A stretch of DNA of 6,237 bases from Nitrospinae bacterium RIFCSPLOWO2_12_FULL_45_22 (lineage in GTDB: Bacteria > 2-12-FULL-45-22). Each line of letters starts with the position of its first letter. The first letter of the stretch is position 1. Below, one piece after another: positions 2,818 through 5,163 of the stretch. The notes below the pieces were generated by a model. The model was not told the DNA's origin. It searched no databases and was given only the letters and a program-made list of their open reading frames with translations. The DNA lies in the NCBI GenBank assembly GCA_001803565.1, contig MHDQ01000227.1, forward strand, positions 1 through 6,237. The letters are read 5' to 3'. Made by a program: the position numbers and the translations under genes.

Positions 2818-2903
2818 AATCTTGAGCAGACGGCTATTGTTGCTCTAAACGACCCGTAAAATAGTCCTTTGATCACCCAGGAAAGAAGGAGGGGGAAAGG
2901 GAG

Positions 2904-4070
2904 ATTTTAAATTCTTCCGGTAAAGAAGAAAGGGCTATATTAGTAGCCTTAAAACCGGGTAATATTAAAAGATATCAGCTCGAAGAGTCTCTGGATGAGC
3001 TAGGGCGCTTAACAGAGACCGCTGGTGCTGTAGTCGTCACCCGGGTAGTTCAGGAAGCAGAAGCCCCTAATCCTGCTCTTTATATCGGCAAGGGTAAGGC
3101 AGAAGAGATAGGCCTTCTCGGTTATGAAAAGGATGCTAACCTGGTCATCTTTGATAACGAATTAAGCCCGGCTCAACTGCGGAATTTAGAAAAGTTTATC
3201 CCTTTCAAGATTATTGACCGGACGCAATTGATCCTGGATATCTTTGCCCAGAGAGCCCGTAGCCATGAAGGTAAGCTACAAGTAGAGTTGGCCCAACTCT
3301 CTTACCTACTGTCCCGGTTGGTAGGGCGGGGCATTGAGATGTCCCGGTTAGGTGGTGGCATAGGGACCAGGGGTCCAGGAGAAACTCAGTTGGAGGTGGA
3401 TAGGCGAAGGATATTAAAGAGGATCCACACGATTAAGAGCAGGATAAAAGAGATACAAAAAACCCGCAAGCTCCATCGGCAGCACCGACATTCTTTAGGA
3501 TTACCTATCCTGGCCCTTATAGGCTATACCAATACCGGCAAGTCCACCCTGATGAACCGGCTTACTGCGGCTGATGTAATGGTGGATGACAAACTCTTTG
3601 CTACCCTTGATCCGACTGTCAGGGGGCTAAAATTATCTAATGGGCTAATGGCTTTGGTTTCTGATACTGTGGGCTTTATTCAGAAACTGCCTCATACGCT
3701 GGTAGAGGCTTTCAAAGCTACCCTAGAAGAAGTAAAGGGGGCCGATATTTTACTCCATGTGATAGATTCCAGTCATCCAGAAGTAGATAGGCAGATTCAG
3801 GATGTATATAAGGTTTTACAGGAACTAGGGGCCGATCAGAAGCCGATCATTTCGGTCTACAATAAAGTAGATAAGCTCTCCCGGGATGAAGCCGACGAGA
3901 AAATCTTACGGGTTAGAGGCAGAGGGATTGCTATATCGGCCTTAAAGGGCTATGGGATAGAAGATTTACTTGAGGCTATACGAGACGAACTGCAGAGGAT
4001 AAAGAATCCTGCAACCGCTGGCGTTAAACAAAGCAAATCTGTAACAGTTCACGGGGTTCAGTTAACTTAA
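2904..4070 (+). CDS. hflX: GTPase HflX, ribosome-splitting factor
   Basis: TRAFAC-class GTPase of 388 residues that binds the large ribosomal subunit and splits stalled ribosomes under stress. An N-terminal HflX domain ([41 protein letters not shown]) leads to the family glycine-rich motif [20 protein letters not shown] (150-169). The G domain has G1 GYTNTGKST (207-215), G3 DTVGF (254-258), G4 NKVD (320-323) and G5 SALKG (345-349). Homology runs upstream through [12 protein letters not shown] to near 2910, yet between the stop at 2862 and codon TTG 3228 there is no in-frame ATG, GTG or TTG. ATT at 2904 is the best start, with AAGGAGG at 2886-2892, 11 nt ahead. The last nine residues (380-388) and the stop come from an inserted element. 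Confidence 0.95.
4033..4040. repeat. Left target-site duplication GCAAATCT
   Basis: Exact 8-bp direct repeat of 4559-4566. It abuts the left end of the inserted element and lies within hflX codons. Confidence 0.85.
4041..4061 (+). repeat. Left terminal inverted repeat of the insertion
   Basis: Begins GTAACAGTTCACGGGGTTCA. It matches the reverse complement of 4538-4558 with mismatches only at positions 1, 10 and 17. It encodes hflX residues 380 onward. Confidence 0.8.
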
Positions 4071-4088
4071 CTTTGTCACATTTGCCAT

Positions 4089-4116
4089 GTCATTCTGAGC
4101 GAAGCGAAGAATCTTG
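4089..4116 (+). repeat. Dispersed repeat GTCATTCTGAGCGAAGCGAA
   Basis: The stretch starting GTCATTCTGAGCGAAGCGAA and ending GAATCTTG is a motif I know from intergenic regions of many unrelated environmental bacteria. It occurs once here, inside the insertion, and encodes nothing. Confidence 0.6.
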
Positions 4117-4132
4117 TTACCGGAAGGCTGAG

Positions 4133-4174
4133 ACCCTTCGCGGAGTTTATCCTGAGCACAGTGAAGGGCTCAGG
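4133..4174. repeat. Interleaved double palindrome
   Basis: Two overlapping dyads: CCCTTC (4134-4139) with GAAGGG (4163-4168), and CCTGAGC (4151-4157) with GCTCAGG (4168-4174). Only one of the two hairpins could form at a time. The same kind of palindrome is common as a dispersed intergenic repeat. It lies inside the insertion. Confidence 0.65.
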
Positions 4175-4198
4175 AAAAGACTTTAATTTTTGGTAATA

Positions 4199-4400
4199 GT
4201 TTAGCCACAAAAAGGCACAAGAAAATTCTGGTTAAGTTTATAACCACAAAGACACCAAGGGCACAAAGAATTCAATTGACCATCCTCGATATGCCACCCT
4301 TCTTTTTCTTAGTGTTCTTTGTGGCTTTGTGGTTCATATTGTTTTTGTTCCTTTTGCGCATTTTTGCGGCTTATTTTTAGAAGACTTTAGTTGGCTAAAC
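4199..4400. repeat. Nested long inverted repeat with CACAAAG units
   Basis: Three nested arms. The outermost GTTTAGCC (4199-4206) pairs with GGCTAAAC (4393-4400). A middle arm, 4203-4222, matches the reverse complement of 4352-4371 at 16 of 20. An inner arm, 4242-4270 (AACCACAAAGACACCAAGGG...), matches the reverse complement of 4306-4334 at 24 of 29. The inner unit is a CACAAAG-type repeat common in intergenic DNA of many bacteria. RNA from either strand could form a long hairpin. It forms the core of the insertion. Confidence 0.8.
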
Positions 4401-4447
4401 ATTTACGAATCTTAAATGGTCATCAATATTTGGAGATTGAGCGAAAG

Positions 4448-5083
4448 ATGTCTTTGAGGAAAAGAGTGCCTGTCTGTGCCGTGTCCCCGCCTGCTATGCG
4501 GGCATGCGTCACGGCAGACAGGCCTGACAACCGATCCCTGACCCCCGTTAACTGTTATGCAAATCTTATTCTTATCGGATTTAAAGGCTGTGGCAAGAGC
4601 TATGTAGGGGATGCCCTGGCCTACCGGCTGGGATGGCCTTTTCTTGATCTGGATAATTTGATCGAGGGCTTTTATGCTGAGAGACAAGGCGAAGTCTTAG
4701 GCTATCGAGAGATCTATAAGAGACACGGAGCGGTTTTTTTCCGGCAACTGGAAGAAGAGTCCCTAAAGAAAGCCCTAATTAAAGGTAGACAGGTTATTGC
4801 CCTGGGTGGTGGCACTATCTTTGCCTCGCCTGCTATTGCTGCTTTATTACAGGATCAGGTAGTGATCTATTTGACTGTCGAGCCTACCCTACTTTTCCAG
4901 CGTATCATGAGCCAGGGCACCCCCGCCTTCTTTGATCCCAATGATCCCGAGGGCTCTTTCTGGTCTCTGTACCAGGAACGCCCCCCCCATTATCAAAAAC
5001 TGGCCCATTATACCTTTGATAATACTACCAAGAAGGTGGAAGAACTGGTGGAAGAGATTATCATAACTTTGGGACTAGAGTAA
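4448..5083 (+). CDS. aroK: Shikimate kinase
   Basis: Phosphorylates shikimate at its 3-hydroxyl with ATP, a late step to chorismate. The kinase core occupies 4562-5080, 173 residues, the normal family length. From ATG 4448 (211 aa) it shows Walker A GFKGCGKS (44-51), DLD (67-69) in place of the usual DxD, FRQLEEE (98-104), GGG (120-122) in ALGGG, and a C-terminal ERPPHYQKLA with the substrate-binding Arg. The lid reads GTPAFFDP instead of the commoner RPLL. The first 38 residues belong to the inserted element and have no homology. The frame stays open back to TTG 4391. ATG 4448 (GGAG 12 nt ahead), GTG 4466 (GAGGA 5 nt ahead) and ATG 4496 are all possible starts. There is no standard start at the core boundary, so the true start is uncertain. 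Confidence 0.9.
   Translation: MSLRKRVPVCAVSPPAMRACVTADRPDNRSLTPVNCYANLILIGFKGCGKSYVGDALAYRLGWPFLDLDNLIEGFYAERQGEVLGYREIYKRHGAVFFRQLEEESLKKALIKGRQVIALGGGTIFASPAIAALLQDQVVIYLTVEPTLLFQRIMSQGTPAFFDPNDPEGSFWSLYQERPPHYQKLAHYTFDNTTKKVEELVEEIIITLGLE
4468..4523. repeat. Strong GC-rich palindrome inside kinase lead-in
   Basis: GCCTGTCTG-TG-CCGTG (4468-4483) pairs with CACGGCAGACAGGC (4510-4523), with a 2-base bulge. Inside it, CCCGC (4486-4490) pairs with GCGGG (4498-4502). This hairpin covers ATG 4496 and lies just after GTG 4466, so in mRNA it could hide or select starts of the shikimate kinase. Confidence 0.75.
4538..4558 (-). repeat. Right terminal inverted repeat of the insertion
   Basis: Reverse complement starts ATAACAGTTAACGGGGGTCA. 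It matches the left end at 18 of 21. Its outer base is A rather than the G of the left end, so it may be slightly decayed. Confidence 0.8.
4559..4566. repeat. Right target-site duplication GCAAATCT
   Basis: Exact copy of 4033-4040. Here it forms the first codons of the conserved shikimate kinase core (A-N-L). Confidence 0.85.
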
Positions 5084-5091
5084 CGTAATAA

Positions 5092-5163
5092 TAGTATCAG
5101 TATCACCTATTAGTATTAGGTCATAGTTAGAGGCTCTAACAACTTATACTGACACTGATACTA
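5092..5163. repeat. Stem-loop of inverted 6-bp microsatellites before aroC
   Basis: TAGTATCAGTATCA (5092-5105) matches the reverse complement of 5150-5163 with one mismatch. The loop holds a further perfect dyad, GTTAGAG-G-CTCTAAC (5126-5140). Each arm is made of near 6-bp units (AGTATC; ACTGAC, ACTGAT, ACTAAC), and the right-hand units run on to about 5178. No T run follows, so it is not a typical terminator. It fills most of the 103-bp gap between shikimate kinase and aroC. Confidence 0.7.

Follow-up and report, generated by a model that had tools for sequence, protein, structure and literature searches.

What transposed into the boundary between hflX and the shikimate kinase gene aroK in Nitrospinae bacterium RIFCSPLOWO2_12_FULL_45_22, and what has become of the two genes? 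The locus lies within a stretch of 6,237 nucleotides (the window), which is the whole of contig C227 in a 3.67-Mb assembly of 321 contigs that is 85% complete. The original prediction described an element bounded by inverted ends and an 8-bp direct repeat, and its coordinates proved exact. The ends are identical at 18 of 21 positions (left, GTAACAGTTCACGGGGTTCAG; right, ATAACAGTTAACGGGGGTCAG, the reverse complement of 4538-4558), and both flanks carry GCAAATCT, a perfect 8/8 target duplication. We scanned for pairs of identical 8-bp repeats, spaced by 60-1500 bp, with inverted ends between them matching at 18 or more of 21 positions; one such arrangement was present in the window, versus 0 in 200 shuffles of it. 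The terminal tetranucleotides are GTAA on the left and ATAA on the right, and the right end alone departs from GTAA, which most other copies have at both ends. No gene is present inside the element, which supports its description as non-autonomous.

Overall, the explanation that we consider very likely is that a 144-bp IS66-type MITE at the hflX/aroK boundary was later invaded by three repeats and now probably carries the aroK start. An IS66 transposase would have inserted the MITE in trans, duplicating GCAAATCT, and the MITE's ends would be those of a single-ORF (ISBst12-like) IS66 element. The later entries would comprise, first, a second IS66-type MITE of 214 bp, the 8-bp duplication of which has since degenerated; second, a TA-flanked repeat, the right part of which was subsequently lost at a 10-bp repeat present in both it and the MITE; and third, a 54-bp palindrome. 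The outcome would be the present element, situated between two same-strand genes and supplying all canonical aroK starts. We infer both the mobilisation in trans by an IS66 transposase and the order of the three inserts relative to each other. What the DNA itself shows is the composite build of the element, its number of copies, the duplications, the IS66-type ends and the start codon positions (Table 1).

Table 1. Features of the composite element and of the genes on either side, in window coordinates.
Feature	Position	Strand	Basis
hflX, called from internal TTG, frame open from 2865	3228..4070	+	TIGR03156, translation
Left target duplication copy GCAAATCT	4033..4040	.	sequence; perfect match to 4559-4566
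MITE core segment 1, IS66-type left end GTAACAGTTCACGGGGTTCAG at 4041-4061	4041..4066	+	alignment to uninterrupted copies
Insert B (98 bp), another interspersed repeat (ACTTGACTTTGTCACATT...) in truncated form	4067..4164	+	longer copies L006, L007, L009
MITE core segment 2	4165..4192	+	alignment to uninterrupted copies
Insert C left duplication copy, degenerate, AATTTTTG	4185..4192	.	length count: 144 bp exactly remain after excision
Insert C, complete 214-bp second IS66-type MITE	4193..4406	+	stand-alone copies L002, L003, L004
MITE core segment 3; in-frame ATG 4448, GTG 4466, GAGG 4456-4459	4407..4468	+	alignment; start scan
Insert C right duplication copy, degenerate, GAATCTTA	4407..4414	.	
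aroK (shikimate kinase) frame, probable start in MITE (ATG 4448 or GTG 4466); conserved part from ~4559	4448..5083	+	PF01202, start scan
Insert D, 54-bp palindrome CCTGTCTG...CAGACAGG, length multiple of three	4469..4522	+	
MITE core segment 4; IS66-type right end 4538-4558 (minus strand)	4523..4558	+	alignment to uninterrupted copies
Right target duplication copy GCAAATCT; opens conserved shikimate kinase part (GCA AAT CT.)	4559..4566	.	

The original prediction placed the element at the junction of hflX and the shikimate kinase gene. It does lie between the two, but the site is the beginning of aroK and not a neutral junction. The conserved part of the kinase begins with the right copy of GCAAATCT. 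When the aroK frame is followed upstream to the stop at 4388, every ATG, GTG and TTG is located inside the element; GTG 4466 has a GAGG six bases before it, and the GGAG of ATG 4448 is farther off. When the flanks are joined without the element, CTG and ATC are the only codons on offer as far back as a stop at 4000. Because all canonical starts of the frame are inside the element, we lean towards translation of aroK from a start codon within the MITE, in which case the shikimate kinase probably has an N-terminal extension, encoded by the MITE, of about 30-37 residues. It is unlikely, though a serious alternative, that the insertion instead broke aroK and that the open frame through the MITE is accidental. 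The insertion did cut the gene off from its earlier upstream context, and a start codon within a MITE can be a product of chance, but the SKI domain is complete (PF01202 spans residues 66-226 of the ORF at 4391-5083), the frame is open and is preserved by the 54 bp of insert D, and the assembly contains no second SKI match. Whether a MITE can provide an essential protein with its start can be tested concretely on aroK.

The hflX stop codon (4068-4070) is also inside the element, resulting in ten MITE-encoded C-terminal residues. At the other end of this gene, the frame from 2862 to 3228 has no ATG, GTG or TTG before the internal TTG at 3228, and an ATT after the purine-rich GGAGGGGGAAAGGGAG would fit as its start. 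Since hflX is without a canonical start at the expected place, non-canonical starts may be used in this organism, which weakens the case for an aroK start in the MITE. Sites that would indicate a promoter or terminator role of the element were not more numerous than in shuffles, and RNA folding of 4430-4600 was not unusual (z -0.81).

Elsewhere in the window, an Rfam search returned two tRNAs only, and no repeats were seen when the other intergenic parts were compared with the examined loci, which is a weak result. The gap between aroK and aroC (5092-5163) has an inverted repeat, TAGTATCAGTATCA / TGACACTGATACTA, possibly another small repeat, and a perfect 13-bp inverted repeat, CGCCAAAAAATTG / CAATTTTTTGGCG, lies between mreB and tRNA-Thr (2514-2549). 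At the contig edge (11-671), a nucleotidyltransferase (PF01909) is paired with a HepT-like protein (PF01934), a candidate toxin-antitoxin system of the MntA/HepT type.

The IS66-like character of the element, as named in the original prediction, is supported by complete IS66 elements, whose ends and 8-bp duplications match. Six such elements on public plasmids were retrieved with the source genome's IS66 protein. Their ends include GTAACCGTTCACAGGATC, GTAACCGTTTAGCCCCC, GTAACTATTCAGCCAC and GTAAGTATTCACCGG, each with a perfect 8-bp duplication; examples of matching ends with such duplications are those of the complete elements from Nostoc (GTAACCGTTCACAGG) and Thiodictyon (GTAACCGTTTAGCC) and of ISGst1 (GTAACTATTCA) and ISKpn15 (GTAAGTATTCACCGG). 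Several IS families make 8-bp duplications, and a complete cognate IS66 was not found; the ends might thus come from another such family and resemble IS66 by convergence. We regard this as very improbable, given that all six complete elements fit the same GTAA-type pattern in ends and duplications, that such an end precedes the IS66 gene in this genome, and that ISDge4 of the ISBst12 group, for which transposition was observed, has the end GTAACTGCTCAGCA and an 8-bp repeat (PMC12898284).

That IS66 gene, the only one in the assembly, sits 133 bp inside the end GTAACCGTTCACCC and is truncated, covering positions 1-262 of the 387 in the transposase model before a scaffold gap and host-like sequence. 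The gap (nine N; L101 2179-2242, G000:C275) has the same stretch, TCGAAGTCGGTGGTTTTGAGAAGCTCT, on both sides, and because of this identity the join probably reflects an artefact of overlap, with host sequence downstream. No complete IS66 transposase anywhere proved to have the end GTAACAGTTCACGGGG, the best ends differing at the sixth base or more. A complete cognate IS66 in the same genome usually accompanies such MITEs but does not strictly define them, as a parent may disappear or escape an assembly. At 16 sites with unpaired ends, up to about 4-5 kb inward were searched for a longer autonomous element, without finding a transposase accompanied by another matching end. None of the IS66 genes in ten end-carrying genomes is located between ends GTAACAGTTCAC, and the IS66 of Candidatus Magnetocorallium has the terminus GTAACTACTCAGGT. 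Eight Magnetocorallium contigs (L201-L208) begin or end in one IS66 gene with this terminus; this IS66 has multiplied recently and breaks the assembly.

The size of the mobile unit can be read from other copies in the source genome. Allowing at most three mismatches, we found 61 matches to the left-end 21-mer, versus 0 for a backwards-read control; of some 40 end sites, only about 20 have a partner within 620 bp, and many sites are fragments. Perfect 8-bp duplications differ between copies (GTCATTGG, CCCCCTTA, CCATATTT, AAAGGCAG and AATATTAT). The expectation of many copies was thus borne out, and of the two confirmations that the original prediction had named, copies with different 8-bp repeats or a full IS66 with the same ends, the source genome delivered the first and not the second. 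Aligned copies have an uninterrupted form of 143/144 bp and, in the same genome, a longer form of 158/159 bp; those in C20, C136, C246, C241 and C287 contain other material in their middle. When inserts B (98 bp), C (214 bp) and D (54 bp) and one 8-bp duplication copy are taken out of the window copy, exactly 144 bp remain. This reconstructed core matches four uninterrupted copies at 126-135 of 144 positions (88-94%), the same level as these copies show among themselves (129-137/144). Judged from these alignments, the unit of transposition is a 144-bp MITE of IS66 type with dozens of copies in the genome, and the remainder of the block consists of three later inserts. The original reading, in which all 518 bp moved as one non-autonomous IS66 derivative, is scarcely tenable: the entire block does lie between the outer ends and within the perfect GCAAATCT pair, but the genome has no second copy of the 518-bp arrangement, every part occurs alone elsewhere, and the core is found uninterrupted.

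The uninterrupted copies are paralogous empty sites for the nested inserts and provide a clean "empty" version of each insertion, which makes order and mechanism readable from the sequence. Insert C has ends of the GTAA type, GTAATAGTTTAGCC (4193-4206) and GTAAATGTTTAGCC (4393-4406, minus strand), and elsewhere stands alone in three copies with perfect 8-bp duplications (GGTTATTC, AAAATAGG and AACAAGTT). Its flanks in the window agree at 4/8 positions only and are no longer alike, so its duplication there is deduced from length bookkeeping. Insert B corresponds to the left portion of a longer repeat, other copies of which terminate in AATGTGAC... and apparently have TA on their flanks. In the window it breaks off at AGGGCTCAGG, and because this sequence is common to insert B and the MITE core, the break suggests that the right part was lost by deletion between the two AGGGCTCAGG copies. 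For insert D, a clear target duplication was not seen. The CATTCTGAGCGAAGCGAAGAATCT module of insert B also occurs in or near other IS66-type MITEs (L138 1432-1462, L260 1431-1462 and L109 426-456), as if small palindromes were passengers common to unrelated MITEs.

Across the genome, exact IS66-type ends are abundant: GTAANNGTTYAGCC occurs 116 times and GTAANNGTTCAC 110 times (226 in total), versus 2 + 2 = 4 for reversed controls. Among 53 end pairs at the loci examined, 23 have duplications (18 with 8/8 and 5 with 7/8 matches), against a mean of 0.7 with permuted flanks. The ends fall into at least four families, GTAACAGTTCACGGGG, GTAACCGTTCA[CG]CC, GTAATAGTTTAGCC and GTAAGCGTTCAGCCGTC. The pattern GTAACAGTTCACNGGGNTCAG was found in 32 stretches of the GTDB collection, with carriers among MAGs labelled Zixibacteria, Magnetocorallium, Desulfobacteraceae, Deltaproteobacteria, Nitrospirae and NPL-UPA2, and once in Duganella. 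The Deltaproteobacteria MAG CG_4_8_14_3_um_filter_43_13 has the whole 159-bp form at ~80-84% identity with 8-bp duplications (L160, L164 and L172), and four further loci (L167, L169, L183 and L187) have the same ends and 8-bp duplications around a different interior. In viral contigs, neither matches to the ends nor relatives of the truncated transposase were detected, and matching DNA was absent from the sole same-order genome examined. We put at even chances the full picture, in which IS66-type MITEs number around a hundred copies in this genome, fall into four or more end families, nest in one another and have ends in common with elements of distant phyla, with one case now providing the translation start of the sole shikimate kinase gene.

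What lifts this case above the routine is the nesting, the high copy number with no complete parent found, and the start of aroK. IS66-derived MITEs are absent from the literature that we found, including a 2024 review of prokaryotic MITEs, the text of which is without IS66 (PMC10969869). Like the MITEs of that review, those described here are short and without a gene, have inverted ends, target duplications and many copies, and presumably move by means of a parental IS; here, however, several IS66-type families occur in one genome and are nested in one another. The window element resembles the ISBst12 group of IS66 (ISDge4, PMC12898284; ISGst1 on pGS18; the Nostoc p057_G IS66) in its GTAACnnTTCA-type ends and 8-bp duplications, but the members of that group have a single-ORF transposase, whereas the window element has no gene, a core of 144 bp and an end at least one base off each of theirs. 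The addition of residues by MITEs is already known: in some genes the four residues at the start (MQQS) come from MITEAba12 (PMC6382973), and the Rickettsia palindromic elements are short mobile repeats that add residues to neighbouring genes (PMC10969869). The element at aroK is like both in adding residues to, or starting, adjacent genes, but those repeats are of other IS types or origins, and here an essential enzyme would gain ~30-37 residues.
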